This document shows positions 13,505 to 38,089 of a stretch of DNA of 64,000 bases, piece after piece. The translations under genes and the position numbers were made by a program. Each line of letters opens with the position of its first letter. The first letter of the stretch is position 1. Under the pieces are notes generated by a model. It was not told the DNA's origin. It searched no databases and was given only the letters and a program-made list of their open reading frames with translations. Source of the stretch: Edaphobacter sp. (GTDB taxonomy: Bacteria > Acidobacteriota > Terriglobia > Terriglobales > Acidobacteriaceae); assembly GCA_025462755.1 (NCBI GenBank), contig JAOAPF010000172.1, forward strand, positions 1-64,000, in the 5' to 3' direction.

Positions 13505-14422
13505 CTATCGTTTCGTCAAAACATCCAGCGCAATAAAGACAAAGAACACAACCGAGATAACTCCGTTCAACGTAAAGAACGCCGCATTCATCCGCCGAAG
13601 ATCCTTCGGCGAAACAATCAAGTGCTCATACAGCAGCAGAATCGCCACCACCGCGACCCCCAGCATCGCCACCTTCCCCAATCCAAACAGAATCACCAGC
13701 CAGCACAGCATCAGCAACATCCCCACATGCATCGCCCGTGCGATCCAAAAAGCAGGCACCAGCCCGAACGCCTGAGGCATACTGTTCAACCCCACAGCGC
13801 GGTCGTGCTCAAAGTCCTGGCACGCATACAGCACATCGAATCCGCCAACCCAAAGCAGCACGGCCACCGTCAGCACCACAATCCGCCAGTCCAGCGATCC
13901 CCTCACCGCAATCCACGCGGCGGAAGGCGCAATCCCCAACGCTAGCCCCAGCACCACGTGCGACCACCGCGTCACCCGCTTCATATAGCTGTAAACCAAC
14001 ACCACCCCCAGCGCCAGCGGAGCCAGTTCCAGCGTAAGCCGGTTCAGCATCGCCGCACCCAACACAAACACCATCACCGACACCGCAACAAATCCACCGA
14101 CAAACCCGCTGCTCAACGCTCCCGCCGGCAGAGCCCGCATCGCCGTTCGCGGATTCGCCGCATCCAGCCGCGCATCCACCAGCCTGTTGAACGCCATCGC
14201 CGCCGACCGCGCAGTTACCATGCAAACCACGATCCAGCCCAGCACCCGCAGCGTCGGCCAGCCGCGCGCGGCCAGCACCGCTCCTGTCAACGCAAACGGC
14301 AGCGCAAACACCGAGTGCTCCCACTTGATCATCTCAAGCGTTACAACCGTACTTCTCCACAATGATGTCATCTCTCTATCGTAAAAGACTTGAGCCGCGC
14401 CGACATCAGCGGCGGGGCCCAA
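13505..14422 (-). CDS. UbiA-family polyprenyltransferase (MqnP/UbiA-like)
   Basis: KWEHSVFALPFALTGAVLAARG, MAFNRLVDARLDAANPRT; polytopic. Confidence 0.9.
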   Translation of the reverse strand: MGPAADVGAAQVFYDREMTSLWRSTVVTLEMIKWEHSVFALPFALTGAVLAARGWPTLRVLGWIVVCMVTARSAAMAFNRLVDARLDAANPRTAMRALPAGALSSGFVGGFVAVSVMVFVLGAAMLNRLTLELAPLALGVVLVYSYMKRVTRWSHVVLGLALGIAPSAAWIAVRGSLDWRIVVLTVAVLLWVGGFDVLYACQDFEHDRAVGLNSMPQAFGLVPAFWIARAMHVGMLLMLCWLVILFGLGKVAMLGVAVVAILLLYEHLIVSPKDLRRMNAAFFTLNGVISVVFFVFIALDVLTKR

Positions 14423-14447
14423 TCAGACCCATGCGAGAAAACCCCAG

Positions 14448-15263
14448 CTATTTCTCAGCCTTTTCCTTCTCCGGCTTCTCCCCTTCCCCGACCACTTCCA
14501 GATTGTTCACCACCTTGAACACACCGGGAACGCCATTCGCCCGCAGATTCGCCACGTCCTTGTCCGCCTGCGTATCCACCACGCCGGAAAGCGTCACATT
14601 GCCATTCACCACCGTAATCCGGATCGGTTTCGCAGGATCGATCGCATACTTATTCAGCTGCGGATACCCATAGATTGCCCGCGCTTCCGCCAGCCGGATC
14701 CGATCATCCATAGGAGACACCGGAGCCACCTCTATATTGTCGACCACGTCCTTCACCCCCGGATAGTTCTCCACCATACTCACCGCAGAGTCCTTGTCCG
14801 AAGGTCCATACGCCGTTCCCCCCAGCGTCACCGCTCCATTCTGCACACCGATCGTAAACGCATTGAACGCCGTCGTTCCGTAGCCCACCCGATCATAAGC
14901 CAGCTTCTCCGCAAGCTTATTTCGAAGCGTCGTATCATCGATCGTCGGCCCCGCAACGTCAATCTCATTCTCCACACCCTTTACATTCTTGCGATGATGC
15001 GCCCTGTTATCTGCATCCAGTTTCGCGCTGTAGACATCCACCGTACCCGTCAGCCTCACCACCCCGTTCTTCACCGAAGCCTTCACGTCTTTGAATCGTT
15101 TGTTCTCGAGCGACTTCATCACATCGGCCTGAATCTGCGCATCGTTCTGCGATGCATTCGCCCCACCCTGCGCCATCGCCTTTGCTGGCCCGGAAAACAG
15201 CAGCACTCCAGCCAGCAGTACCCACGTCATCCCCAACGAACCCGCGCGTTTTAGAATCATCAT
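14448..15263 (-). CDS. BON-domain secreted protein (multiple BON repeats)
   Basis: VKNGVVRLTGTVDVYSAKLDA, VQNGAVTLGGTAYGPSDKD, VNGNVTLSGVVDTQADKD. Confidence 0.92.
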   Translation of the reverse strand: MMILKRAGSLGMTWVLLAGVLLFSGPAKAMAQGGANASQNDAQIQADVMKSLENKRFKDVKASVKNGVVRLTGTVDVYSAKLDADNRAHHRKNVKGVENEIDVAGPTIDDTTLRNKLAEKLAYDRVGYGTTAFNAFTIGVQNGAVTLGGTAYGPSDKDSAVSMVENYPGVKDVVDNIEVAPVSPMDDRIRLAEARAIYGYPQLNKYAIDPAKPIRITVVNGNVTLSGVVDTQADKDVANLRANGVPGVFKVVNNLEVVGEGEKPEKEKAEK

Positions 15264-15344
15264 CCCCTCAAATCCTGGTTACTGAGCAGCTGGCTCGCCG
15301 AGAAAACCCACACCATAGGATGCAGCTTTCCAATCCTCAGCGGT

Positions 15345-18300
15345 CTACCGGTAGCGCCTCCGCAGTTTGTACACAACGCTGAAAACGCCCGACTCATCGC
15401 GCGTCACAACAATCGAATTATCGTGATTCAAGTCATACTGCACCTGGATCAACTGCTGCGCCGATGTATTGACGTTCGTCGCGAACGTCGCCGTAACCTG
15501 CCGCGAAATCTGCTGCTGCACCGTGATCCTCGCCGACGAGTTTCCCAGCGTGCCCACAAACGCCGGATCGATCTTCACGCTACCGACGCCAAACAGCTTC
15601 TGCACGCGATTGCTTACCGTAGCATTCAGCGCCCCGCCCAGCAGCGCGCTCGTCGTCGGATCGGTACCCTGCTGGATCTGCCGCTCCTGGTAAAGCTGCG
15701 CCTCCTCTTGCGTCCGGCCCAGCGCCAGCAGTGCAAACACGTCCGTCTCACTCAGCGGCGGCTCCGACCGGTACGTCGGCTTCAGATTCGTCGCCGTCCC
15801 ATGCAACCCTATCGTGATGTCGTAGTTCTCCACCTGAGCCGTCGCATCCAGGTCGATGATCGGATCGATCCGCACCGGGTTCGTAAAATAAATCTCTCCC
15901 CGCTGCAGTTGATACTTCGTCCCCGCAAACGTCGCGCTGCCCTCATTGATCTCGATCCGCCCCAGAACTGACGGCACCGCCGCCGTCCCTCGAATCGTCA
16001 GATCCACCGTCCCGGCAAGCTTCGCATACGAGTTCTGAAAGTCCAGTTGCGGCGCGCTCGTCACGTGCACATCCAAACGAATCTTGTTTGCCGGTGAGTT
16101 CGGATCAGGCGGCGCGCTTACCCCACCCGGCGACCCGAACGCCGCAAAATCCACGTCCGGCCCAATCCCAAACCGCGTTATCAAAATCGATCCGCTCAAC
16201 AACGCGCTCTCCAGTCCGCCCTGGAGCTTCAGATTCGCATTCGCCGTCGTGCTCAACCCATACAACCGCACCCGCACCACATCGCCCGTCGCAGTGAGGT
16301 CTGCATACACCCCGTTCCGGTAACGAATCGAGCCGCCAAGCTTCAGCCTGCCGCCCCCTGTCGTCGCCGTGAGGTTCTCGACCTGCAGCCGGTCCCCATT
16401 GAACACCAGCGTCCCATTCAGATTGGTCAACCCATTCGGAACCCCATCCACCGCCACGTTCACGTTGTCGAATTGCACCCTGCCCGTCAGGTCAGGATTC
16501 TTCACCAACCCACCGGCGCCCACCGTAAACTCCATCTTGCCACCGGAGATGATGTCATTATCAAACGTGTGCAGCAACGCCATGCTTATACTCCCGGTTG
16601 CCTTCACATCCATCTTGCCGCCCTTCGGGTCCGCCGCCCCGAACAACTGCGCCATCCCGCCTACCCGCAGATCCGTATCCTGCCCGGTGATATGCACCTG
16701 TTCCAGCGTGGCGATTCCGTCGCGCAGCGAAATCCGAATAGGCTCAGACTCTTTCAGCTCGATTCCCTGCACCTTCACATCCGATTGGCTGAAATGCACG
16801 TCAACCTGGCTGAACGACGCCTCTCCGCTCAACTCCTTCGGCCTCTTCAGCGGCCCGTTCACCGTCGCCGTCGCATCGATCGTGGATCGCACCTTCATCG
16901 TTCCCGGCCCAAACATCCCCAGCGGCTTGCCGATATCGAACCCAGTGAGCGTCAGCTTCGCCTGCGCCGGATAATTGCCGGTAAGCCGCGCCTGCCCGGT
17001 CAAATCCACCTTCGCACCCACCAGCGTCGAGTTCACCGTCACGTACACCGTCTCGGCTTTACTGTGTGCCTCAACCGCCGCCTCGCCAATGCCTTGTCCC
17101 CGGTACTTCATCGCGGCGACCTTCACATTGGCCTTGAGTTCCGGGTCCGTCATCGTTCCATTCGCATCGGCCACTACGCTGACCACGCCATCCATATCCG
17201 TCGCCGCATGCTGTACCGTCACAAACTTCGACAGCAAAATATCGTGGCCCTCTATGTGCGCATGCAGATGCTCGCTCCCCATGTCATATCCGCCGGTGCC
17301 TGCGATCTGCATCCCATGCATCCGCACCACAACATTGGTCGCCTCAATTGCCTTTCCCTGCACCGTTAGGTCCGTCACCGCAGACTCGTACGGCTCGCCA
17401 TAAGCCACGCCGTTCGTCAACGCGACATGCCCGCCTCCCCCGAGGCTCTTCAGCGTCCCCGACGCATGGCCATTCAACGCCATCGTTCCCGTTAGCGGAA
17501 CCTTCCCCTGCTGTCCCGCAATCTGCAGCACATCCACCACCTGCGCATTGGCCAGTTGCGCCTGCGCATCCAAAGCCATGCCGTCATCCCACACATACGT
17601 CGCTACCCCCTGCCGCCCTACCACCTTTCGAGGCACAATCTTGCCGGCAACATTCAACACCGCCGTCCCCCGCTTGATCGTCGAACTGGCCACCACCACG
17701 CCCGAGTTCGGCGAATACTCCGCATCCGTCACCAGCGAATCGAGCAGCACGTCCGTCGTTCCCAGCGCAAACTCCATATTCGTGGCCTGCATGTGTCCCT
17801 TCACATCCAGGTCTGCAATCTTTCCTCTCGCCGTGCCGTTAAACTGCAGCGCGCCATGCAGCACCACAGGAATCGCAGCCGTACCCTTCTTTCCATTGCC
17901 TTGCAGGTCCAACGTCGTCAGCAGCTGGTTATACTCGGACAAATCCCGCATCGTCAGGTCAACCCGCAGATCCGTCAGCCGGTCGCCCGCGCTCACCCCC
18001 AGTACACCCGACGCTTCAAAATTCGTCTGCGGCATCTGCAGCGTGATCTTCTGAATCACAACCGTCTCGTTCTTCCCCGAATAGTGCGCCAGCGTCTGCC
18101 CCGTCACCGGAACATCGTTCAGCGCGCGCGGCCGCTTCACACCCGTCGGCGCAAACGTCAGATTCCCGTCCACCTCCACCGTATCGGCGATATTCGTCGC
18201 TGGCCCGCCCCACTCCACCTTCACTGGTCCGCTCACCGCCGTATCGAACCCCAGATCGCCATAATGCTCCGGCGCGGTCACATCCATAATCGTTCGCAGC

Positions 18301-35404: not shown

Positions 35405-35845
35405 TCACCGTGATTTCGGCTTGCTCTTGCCGTCGAGGTTGAGCGCCACTGCAGCGCGGATGAGATCCTTCAAGGCCGCCTCATCGACCTTGTCGCCTTC
35501 GTGGATGTCGATGGCGCGCCTGACATTCCCGTCGAGGCTGGAGTTGAATAGACCGGAAGGATCCTTCAACGCAGCTCCCTTGGCAAAGGTCATCTTGACG
35601 GCGTTCTTGTACGTCTCTCCCGTGCAGACGATGCCACCGTGGGAGAAGACGGGAGTCCCCGGCGATGTCGGCTTGACCCACTTCCACTCTTCAACGATCT
35701 CAGGGTCTGCCTTGTGAATGATCTCGCGAACCTTCGCGAGCATCTTCCCGCGCCAGTCCCCAAGTTCCTTGATCTTCTCGTCGATGAATGCAGAGGCAGA
35801 TTCCACCGAGACCCTCCTTTTCATGTACAGCTCCAACTCTCGCAC
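35405..35845 (-). CDS. DUF1801 domain-containing protein
   Basis: LGDWRGKMLAKVREIIHKADPEIVEEWKWVKP...GGIVCTGETYKNAVKMTFAKGAAL. Confidence 0.9.
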   Translation of the reverse strand: MRELELYMKRRVSVESASAFIDEKIKELGDWRGKMLAKVREIIHKADPEIVEEWKWVKPTSPGTPVFSHGGIVCTGETYKNAVKMTFAKGAALKDPSGLFNSSLDGNVRRAIDIHEGDKVDEAALKDLIRAAVALNLDGKSKPKSR

Positions 35846-35891
35846 TTAATTTAGCCTGCGCTCAGCGTAACCTGCAACCTCCGCCAACGTC

Positions 35892-37136
35892 GGGTAGTGG
35901 GTCAGTTTGGAGTGAATGACTGAAGTTTCCGAAAACCCGACCTCTCGGACATATCGATGGACATCAGCTTAGCGGTGGGACTTATGTCTTCTCACACGCT
36001 TTTACCCCCCGTCTCCAGGGAACTTGTACTGCAGCCTACAGCGAATCTCATCGAACATGATGATTATGGGCGTATCACCACCCGAGCTACATGCGTTCCT
36101 TTGGCGGGATCGGCGGGCGTGACGGGCGAGGCGAGTTGTCCGTCAGCGGAAGAGGCCGGAGTGCCGTTGGGTGCGGATCTACTACAAAAATGGTATGGCG
36201 TGGATTGCCTCGCAACCCTACGCTCCGAGAGTGCAGCGGAAGATTGGTCTGGTCGATGCGGGGCAAGACCCATATGATTCCCACAGAGGTTCAACCTACG
36301 GATGCCTGAAATGGAAATACCTGACTACTACGAACTTCTCGAGGTTAGCCCTCAGGCTACTGATGAGACAATTCATCGTGTCTACCGCTATATGGCGGCT
36401 CGGTATCATCCTGACAATTTGGGAACGGGGAATCTGGAAAAGTTCACCCAACTAACGTCGGCCTACAAAGTTCTCTCGGATCCTAATAGAAGATCTGAAT
36501 ACGATGCTCAGCGAGCGACGCGTCAACCTACGATTCGAAATCCGATGTCGAGCACGGTTGATTTCATGGACCAGGGGGAGGGTGACCTGAACCGCCGACT
36601 CGCGGTACTTGCGATCCTCTATTACCGTCGACGTATATATCCCAATAGCCCGGAAGTGTCTCTCGCCGAAATTGAACAGCGAATGGGGTTCCCACGCGAT
36701 TATCTTGACTTCACGACTTGGTATCTGGCGAAAAAGAGGTATATCACCCGGGCGGATAACTCGGATTTTACCCTGACGGTTGAAGGCGTGGACTTCATCG
36801 AAACGCAGCGTGCAACCATACCACTGTTGGACAAGTTGCTTACAAACGGAAGTCACACCGATGATAACGAAGTACGCAGCCGTCTGCTTGCTTCTGAGCC
36901 GCCACCTCCGGATAGTCCAAGCTATTAGGAGTTTCCGGTCGTGGTTTTAGCAACTGAGATGATCTCGCAGTTGTAGAAACAGTTCTTGGCAGCCGGAAAC
37001 CAGTCGAGCCAGCGCCGCACGTCTCGCTTTCCGAGGCGTGGATAGCCGCTGGACCCAGAATTCGCCGTCCAAGTGGACCAGTAACGGGGTTATAGGTAAC
37101 TTTGGTTGCCCCGGAGTCAAAACTGGCCCACTACCC
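35892..37136. mobile_element. Putative non-autonomous mobile element with TIRs and 6-bp TSD carrying a J-domain gene
   Basis: Left TIR GGGTAGTGGGTCAGTTTGGAGTG; right TIR (reverse complement) GGGTAGTGGGCCAGTTTTGACTC; flanked by AACGTC at 35886-35891 and 37137-37142. Confidence 0.8.
36302..36928 (+). CDS. J-domain protein with C-terminal winged-helix-like region
   Basis: DYYELLEVSPQATDETIHRVYRYMAARYHPDN (HPD motif)...FTQLTSAYKVLSDPNRRSEYD; C-terminal YLAKKRYITRADNSDFTLTVEGVDFIE is wHTH-like. Confidence 0.9.
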   Translation: MPEMEIPDYYELLEVSPQATDETIHRVYRYMAARYHPDNLGTGNLEKFTQLTSAYKVLSDPNRRSEYDAQRATRQPTIRNPMSSTVDFMDQGEGDLNRRLAVLAILYYRRRIYPNSPEVSLAEIEQRMGFPRDYLDFTTWYLAKKRYITRADNSDFTLTVEGVDFIETQRATIPLLDKLLTNGSHTDDNEVRSRLLASEPPPPDSPSY

Positions 37137-37172
37137 AACGTCGCCGCCTCCTCGCACTCCTACGACTTGCGG

Positions 37173-37634
37173 TCAGGCGCTCGCCAGCGTGGCCTGCAGC
37201 CGGCGCCAGAAGAAGTACGAGAGCCCCCAGAGCACGCTGGTGGTCGCCGACGGGGCCAACGCTGCCGGGCGATCGCCGATCGAGAGGTGGGCGATGAGCG
37301 CCGAGACGAGGTTGATGGCGAAGCCGGCGTAGGCCCAATCCTTGATTACGTAGATGACGCCCCGCGCGGGGACCATGGGGACGAGCAGTGCGGCCACGCC
37401 TGCCACCTTGGCCCACGAGAGCTCCACACGGAACCAGACGGCGGGGAAGCCGAGGCGGGTGAACGCCTGCGCCGCCTCCGGCAGGCGCAGTAGCTCGTAG
37501 TAGGCGGTGAAGCTCATCTCCAGGCAGAAGAGCGTCGTGAAGATCCAGAAGCCGGCGACCAGCCCCCTGGAGGCCTTCATCTTGCCGGAGACCTTCATCC
37601 TGTAAGAGTCCATCATGCTATCCGACGCGATCAT
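37173..37634 (-). CDS. DoxX-like small integral membrane protein
   Basis: Polytopic: YYELLRLPEAAQAFTRLGFPAVWFRVELSWAKVAGVAALLVPMVPARGVIYVIKDWAYAGFAINL; internal ATG at 37634. Confidence 0.85.
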   Translation of the reverse strand: MIASDSMMDSYRMKVSGKMKASRGLVAGFWIFTTLFCLEMSFTAYYELLRLPEAAQAFTRLGFPAVWFRVELSWAKVAGVAALLVPMVPARGVIYVIKDWAYAGFAINLVSALIAHLSIGDRPAALAPSATTSVLWGLSYFFWRRLQATLASA

Positions 37635-38089
37635 GCCGCACCCCCGGCGAGCACCCGCTCCAGGGCGCCGAAGAATTTCTGCCAGCCGTAGTTTGCACCC
37701 TGATACGCTGCCTGCTGATCGGGACGGAAGCCGGACTGCTCCATGCGAACGTGGGTGCCGCCCTCCGCTGGAGTCAATGTCCAGAGCACCACCCATTGAA
37801 GCCCGGATTCGCTTCCTCCAACACCCCAGTTATAGGACAGGCGTTGGAGTGGGTCGACGATCAGCACCTCGCAGTCGACAACACCATTCCAGTTCGGTAC
37901 CGGATCGGCCCGGAATTGGAACTTCCGCCCGACCACCGGCTCGAAGTCGTTGTTCATCATCCATTGCGCGAGCAGCGGGCTCTCGGTGAGCGCCCGCCAA
38001 AGCTTCTCTGGCGGGTGTGGGAATATCCTCTCGACTACAAGTGTGCGGGGACTCTCTGCTGGATTGCTCCTGTCTGCTGCGTTGCTCAT
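37631..38089 (-). CDS. SRPBCC/AHSA1-family protein
   Basis: LVVERIFPHPPEKLWRALTESPLLAQWMMNNDFEPVVGRKFQFRADP. Confidence 0.93.
   Translation of the reverse strand: MSNAADRSNPAESPRTLVVERIFPHPPEKLWRALTESPLLAQWMMNNDFEPVVGRKFQFRADPVPNWNGVVDCEVLIVDPLQRLSYNWGVGGSESGLQWVVLWTLTPAEGGTHVRMEQSGFRPDQQAAYQGANYGWQKFFGALERVLAGGAA

Follow-up and report, generated by a model that had tools for sequence, protein, structure and literature searches.

The window analysed here, a 64,000-nucleotide stretch of DNA from Edaphobacter sp., contains a small element that is probably a one-gene cassette lodged in a transposon-derived, IS1-type landing pad of this genus. The ends of the pad are fixed and the gene between them depends on the species, a pattern suggestive of a mechanism, not described so far, by which single genes are swapped between sites. 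The window belongs to a draft genome of 553 contigs with 6% contamination, and the same structures were also identified in cultured strains with complete or near-complete genomes.

Alignment to relatives placed the window element at positions 35893 to 37135 (1,243 bp, about 1.24 kb), from the start at GGTAG to the end at CTACC (Table 1). The ends are inverted repeats, GGTAGTGGGYCAGTTT, and 15 of the first 16 bp of the right end, GGTAGTGGGCCAGTTTTGA, are identical to the left end. A previous interpretation, here called the sequence-only reading, had described inverted ends bounded by a 6-bp direct repeat. Both the ends and a repeat are present, but with the boundary set by the GGTAG that is common to all relatives the target duplication is 8 bp, CAACGTCG. 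The window was scanned for 16-bp inverted ends with at most 2 mismatches, located 300-3000 bp apart and flanked by a perfect 8-bp repeat. Exactly one such structure was found in the 64 kb and none in 100 first-order Markov shuffles of the window. The GC content is also lower inside the element (about 0.53) than directly outside (0.58-0.67), as noted previously.

Table 1. Features of the element and of its flanks in the window
Feature	Position	Strand	Basis or remark
Flanking host gene, DUF1801	35405..35845	-	Pfam PF08818
Left target duplication copy, CAACGTCG	35885..35892	.	Scan and sequence
Left outer terminal repeat, GGTAGTGGGTCAGTTTGGA, IS1-type end	35893..35911	+	
Left inner motif (L-inner), GAAGTTTCCGAAAACCCGACCTCT	35922..35945	+	Last bases degenerate
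Putative exchangeable cassette between the two inner cores	35946..37085	.	Same-site and shared-cassette comparisons in relatives
Cargo gene, J-domain (HPD) and winged-helix-like C-terminus, 208 aa	36302..36928	+	Pfam, AlphaFold, Foldseek
Right inner motif (R-inner), CAAAGTTACCTATAACCCCGTTACTGGTC	37076..37104	-	
Right outer terminal repeat, GGTAGTGGGCCAGTTTTGA	37117..37135	-	
Right target duplication copy, CAACGTCG	37136..37143	.	Scan
Flanking host gene, DoxX-like	37173..37796	-	Pfam PF13564

The cargo gene is the sole convincing open reading frame within the element, and the domain order previously proposed for its product was borne out by a Pfam match to the J-domain (PF00226, DnaJ, E 2e-18) and by an AlphaFold model with a mean pLDDT of 78, in which the J-domain is followed by a winged-helix-like C-terminus. 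The firm matches in Foldseek were J-domains, with weaker matches to MarR/PcaR. No transposase domain was detected with Pfam in the open reading frames scanned in the window element and its relatives, which agrees with the description of a bounded unit without a transposase. The closest homologues of the J-domain gene (87% in genome G053) are located outside any such element and have no flanking sites, and the homology to them ends before any site is reached. Since the cargo of other elements with these ends is unrelated and the J-domain homologues occur outside elements, a role for this protein in replication or transposition, as once suggested, is unsupported, and the gene would simply be the current passenger of this pad.

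A pattern search with the outer 19 bp retrieved three larger elements, L175 to L177, which have the same ends on both sides (GGTAGTGGGYCAGTTTGAA) and outer 19 bp identical in consensus to those of the window family. Their target duplications are 7-8 bp (CGCTTTGG in L175 and AGAGCCGT in L176, both of 8 bp). Each of them encodes an IS1-type transposase (Pfam PF03400 over the cut-off, E 9e-9 to 1e-10), for which the best NCBIfam family was NF033558 (E 3e-19 to 6e-16, 59-70 bits, with a cut-off of 100). The three elements are 2.2-3.7 kb in size and contain at least one passenger open reading frame besides the transposase. The sequence-only reading had proposed a search for precisely such full-length relatives with a transposase. 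Because they combine the same ends with an IS1-type transposase, the window element is best read as a non-autonomous IS1-type relative that would be movable in trans. Among the two options considered before, a trans-mobilised element is therefore better than an insertion sequence that lost its transposase to cargo. The loose resemblance of the ends to IS21-type ends found no support: the full partners retrieved with these outer 19 bp encode IS1-type transposases, and an IS21 assignment was dropped on that ground.

In a search of 150 related genomes, paired ends were found in about 20 genomes, all from the same genus (Edaphobacter, including GTDB-placed Granulicella), and in no other among 69 genera. 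A right-end motif was also seen in a contig labelled as a Chitinophaga pinensis MAG (L229), which is possibly a mis-binned acidobacterial contig. With models of both ends we delimited at least 46 paired-end elements in the genus, 0.6-4.8 kb in size, which have the same asymmetric ends of about 60 bp, varied cargo and no transposase in the open reading frames scanned. The left ends read GGTAGTGGGTCAGTTTGGAGTGAATGACTGAAGTTTCCGAAAACCCGACTTT and the right ends, when reverse-complemented, GGTAGTGGGCCAGTTTGAACTCCGGGGCAACCAAAGTTACCTATAACCCCGTTTT. In 26 of the 46 elements, the 8-mers on the two sides are identical at 7 or 8 positions, as compared to 2.8% of mismatched left/right pairs, which indicates that these elements are transposition products. 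No report of such elements in Edaphobacter was found in the literature searched, of which the coverage was partial.

Genes for an HMA-domain protein and an epoxide hydrolase are among the cargo of the family, as is a GntR-ABC operon. As judged by reading the sequences alone, the cargo further comprises a CPBP-type protease, an SDR enzyme, a signal peptidase and numerous small proteins of unknown kind. In element L120 of genome G054, an open reading frame resembling a C-terminal piece of elongation factor G is located beside a signal-peptidase-like cassette that is shared with G002 (95.6%). A pad with different cargo in G056 (L110, contig C42) lies between flanks that are homologous to positions 13908-15834 of the window, where the window itself has no end motif and an unrelated region of open reading frames. 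An intergenic repeat of the GTCATTCCGCAGCGCAGCGGAGGAATC type, seen in the left flank of L084, recurs in a very large number of copies throughout the genomes of Edaphobacter.

Besides the outer repeats, the ends contain inverted inner motifs, located about 25-50 bp inside each outer end (L-inner, AGTTKCCGAAAACCCGACTTT; R-inner, AAAACGGGGTTNTNGGNAACT), which are absent from L175 to L177. In the window these motifs have partly decayed, which may have left this copy inactive, and we infer that the left boundary of its cassette lies at about 35945.

An all-against-all comparison of the elements revealed groups with homologous flanks on both sides and unrelated interiors. This set comprises 27 same-site pairs from different genomes at 8 loci, and none of the 27 pairs shared cargo by blastn or tblastx. 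The near-identical strain pairs G014/G060 and G041/G061, with one site each, were left out; in both of them site and cargo have been inherited together. The outer ends were more alike within a locus than between loci (0.78 versus 0.71 for the left end, 0.81 versus 0.68 for the right end), and none of 2,000 label permutations reached the observed difference, the group labels being taken from flank similarity and the sequences being related, with no phylogenetic correction. The window's own site was located in relatives with the help of the flanking DUF1801 gene. In Edaphobacter modestus (L145), it is flanked by CAACGTCG and contains two unrelated genes that are separated by an inner junction, while G060 (L143) and G014 (L141) contain a third content and G029 (L140) a right-end remnant only. 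The same-site comparisons place the left limit of exchange at CCCGACTTT. Both the species-dependent cargo and the second, inner site had been missed in the sequence-only reading because other genomes are needed to see them. A clean empty site, for which that reading had proposed to look, was found at neither of two loci examined: in relatives, the window's own site was filled, reduced to a remnant or unalignable, and a search with joined flanks at one multi-species pad returned filled sites and unalignable left flanks.

Every pair of elements that shares cargo, by blastn or tblastx, lies at different loci. In the three cleanest shared cassettes, the three pairs to which the precise breakpoints refer, the homology ends at the same place in the inner motif, give or take a few bases: at AAAACGGG on the right side in L105/L120 (95.6% identity over about 1 kb), at AAACGC in L108/L128 and at CCCCGTTTT in L114/L116. 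The genes shared by L166/L171 and L160/L172 lose homology before reaching a site. The CPBP-protease-like cassette common to L108 and L128 points, relative to the pad ends, one way in the first element and the other way in the second, an outcome to be expected if inverted inner sites recombine. Together with the left limit at CCCGACTTT, the breakpoints at the inner core suggest that exchange affects the DNA between the inner cores and that the outer repeats stay with the locus.

These patterns bear on two explanations that involve no dedicated exchange. The concept of passenger genes mobilised between transposon ends, as in mobile insertion cassettes (MICs) and transporter insertion sequences (tISs), already exists (PMC9330008), and the elements could accordingly be non-autonomous IS1-type units with captured passengers that were inserted independently at the same hot spots, with no inner exchange. 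The IS1-type ends and 8-bp target duplications fit this explanation, as do the extra open reading frames in the full IS1-type elements of the genus. Independent insertions would, however, bring unrelated ends, whereas the outer ends cluster by locus, with locus-specific variants common to species that have different cargo, and the shared cassettes lose homology in the inner core and not at the outer end. We consider this explanation distinctly unlikely. Somewhat less so, although still unlikely, is RecA-type homologous recombination or gene conversion via the ends of about 60 bp and the flanks, with no dedicated recombinase. The ends do provide about 60 bp of imperfect homology, and the flanks are homologous between species, so that the entire locus could be substituted by DNA coming in from a relative. 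Yet such replacement explains only the spread of an existing combination of site and cargo; it leaves unexplained the presence of one cassette at two unrelated sites, where its breakpoints fall within the same few bases, the inversion of a cassette relative to the ends and the junction arrays of one orientation described below. An exchange of cassettes between fixed ends accounts both for different genes at the same site in different species and for the same gene at different sites.

Inner motifs that are not accompanied by outer ends were also found, in 30-32 of the 62 genomes of the genus, and a control with reversed patterns gave no matches in the same 62 genomes. In G053 and others, an R-inner and an L-inner motif separated by 8-40 nt are paired between successive genes, in clusters that span up to about 35 kb. 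We collected 40 such junctions, in which the back-to-back inner motifs form palindromes. Within contiguous arrays, all sites were located on the same strand (8/8, 6/6, 4/4, 4/4 and 3/3); the exception, L169, is of mixed orientation and its sites are 6 kb apart. Identical junctions, including the spacer, were found beside different genes in G053, where L160, L161, L164 and L168 have identical 25-nt spacers (CGATCTGCCCTCCAACTCGA and others). A multi-gene block resembling an RND efflux operon is located between two array sites in L161 (977-6545), which indicates that cassettes are not limited to one small gene.

An alignment of the junctions gave no structure in RNAalifold and a search of Rfam gave no match. 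When a named structure was placed on the alignment, 78.6% of the cells paired, as compared to at most 58% when it was slid, while the number of paired cells was barely above that of shuffles (59 of 500) and covariation was modestly above (4 to 10 of 500). Because the excess over shuffles is weak, we claim an inverted repeat and not a proven folded site. Single junctions, which are inverted pairs of about 70-95 bp between genes, recall the REP/REPIN palindromes that are moved by RAYT (Y1) transposases, and the four tested folded better than most shuffles (z -2.9 to -5.9), with a conserved unpaired asymmetry, ACG against GAC; the arrays would then be genes with REPINs between them. However, a Y1 transposase is missing at E 1e-5 from G014, a genome with 10 L-inner sites, there was no inner or outer motif near the Y1 loci examined in five other genomes, and REPINs alone do not explain a swapping of cargo between fixed ends. 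We regard this as very unlikely, and RAYT was rejected as a candidate enzyme.

A true integron or CALIN, with attC sites as the junctions and an IntI acting on the pad as an attI-like locus, is about as improbable. In common with integrons as described (PMC8352920), the arrays consist of small genes, most of them unknown, and the imperfect palindromes have a variable loop and, within an array, a single orientation. Against this, none of the 62 genomes encodes an IntI over the TIGR02249 cut-off, RYYYAAC...GTTRRRY pairs were present in 1 of the 40 junctions (shuffled mean 0.16, maximum 2) and, in contrast to attI/attC, a pad is bounded on either side by sites that are inverted with respect to each other. 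The tyrosine recombinases of about 300-305 aa that were found in the search for IntI belong to IS91-like elements, which encode a tyrosine recombinase together with an HUH transposase (L201, L203, L204, L205 and L207). One of these, L205 (G049, contig C1, 137500-145000), has its start precisely at the L-inner core of a complete junction, with the boundary between CCGAAAACCCGACTTG and AACGAAG, while other copies start after shorter look-alikes and several have no inner motif at up to 4 mismatches. The genomes G014, G060 and G053, all of which contain arrays, have only weaker, Xer-level tyrosine-recombinase matches. Since other copies lack the motif and the array genomes show Xer-level matches only, the link to the sites is inconsistent and we do not claim the IS91-like recombinase as the cassette enzyme.

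The preferred explanation, a cassette in a landing pad, thus has two layers. In the outer layer, a unit with IS1-type ends appears to have been inserted once at the window's site and to have made the 8-bp target duplication; as the unit has no transposase, its movement as a whole would need an IS1-type transposase in trans. In the inner layer, the DNA between the inner cores would be exchanged as a cassette while the ends stay, a pattern seen in the comparisons, and most likely by a putative site-specific recombinase acting on the inner motifs, with L-inner and R-inner as the presumptive recombination sites. Cassettes in tandem would form palindromic junctions of R-inner, spacer and L-inner, in arrays of one orientation. 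More tentatively, this may be a third bacterial cassette system besides integrons and dif modules, with palindromic sites (AAAACGGGG...CCCGACTTT), a putative recombinase, chromosomal arrays and swaps at IS1-type pads.

If true, cassette exchange without a linked canonical integrase would extend the short list of bacterial routes for the shuffling of single genes, and would explain the diversification of small operons at fixed chromosomal spots in soil Acidobacteria. Islands with insertion sequence ends and no transposase would be read as receptacles rather than as dead transposons. This raises the question of which enzyme cuts at AAAACGGG and CCCGACTTT. As the pads are natural before-and-after experiments across species, cassette exchange is directly testable.

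The elements have the same outer 19-bp terminal repeat consensus, as in L175 to L177, and an 8-bp target duplication like that of the IS1 family (about 8-9 bp), which has a single open reading frame for an IS1-type DDE transposase, whereas the Edaphobacter units contain none. They differ from non-autonomous IS1 derivatives by a much larger and more varied cargo and by the extra inner motif in the ends. MICs and transporter insertion sequences, such as the TnXax1-bounded cassettes of Xanthomonas, likewise consist of one or more passenger genes between transposon ends without a transposase, but in Edaphobacter the cargo changes while the ends stay and the homology ends at the inner motif, not at the end of the transposon. 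Integron cassettes and CALINs, the latter by definition without IntI, are also arrays of small genes with imperfect palindromic sites of one orientation and a variable loop. The consensus of the Edaphobacter sites is however not attC, no IntI exceeds the cut-off, and the single cassettes found in IS1-type pads have inverted sites on their two sides. In the dif (pdif) modules of Acinetobacter plasmids, short inverted sites likewise flank genes that are shuffled with no integrase in the module, whereas the Edaphobacter units are chromosomal and located inside IS1-type ends. As judged by eye, the inner motif of about 30 bp does not resemble Xer dif sites, as it lacks an arm of the TTATGTTAA type present in the dif consensus. 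The Edaphobacter units would thus be analogous in operation to integron arrays or dif modules set inside an IS1-type pad, a likeness that does not establish membership in either group.
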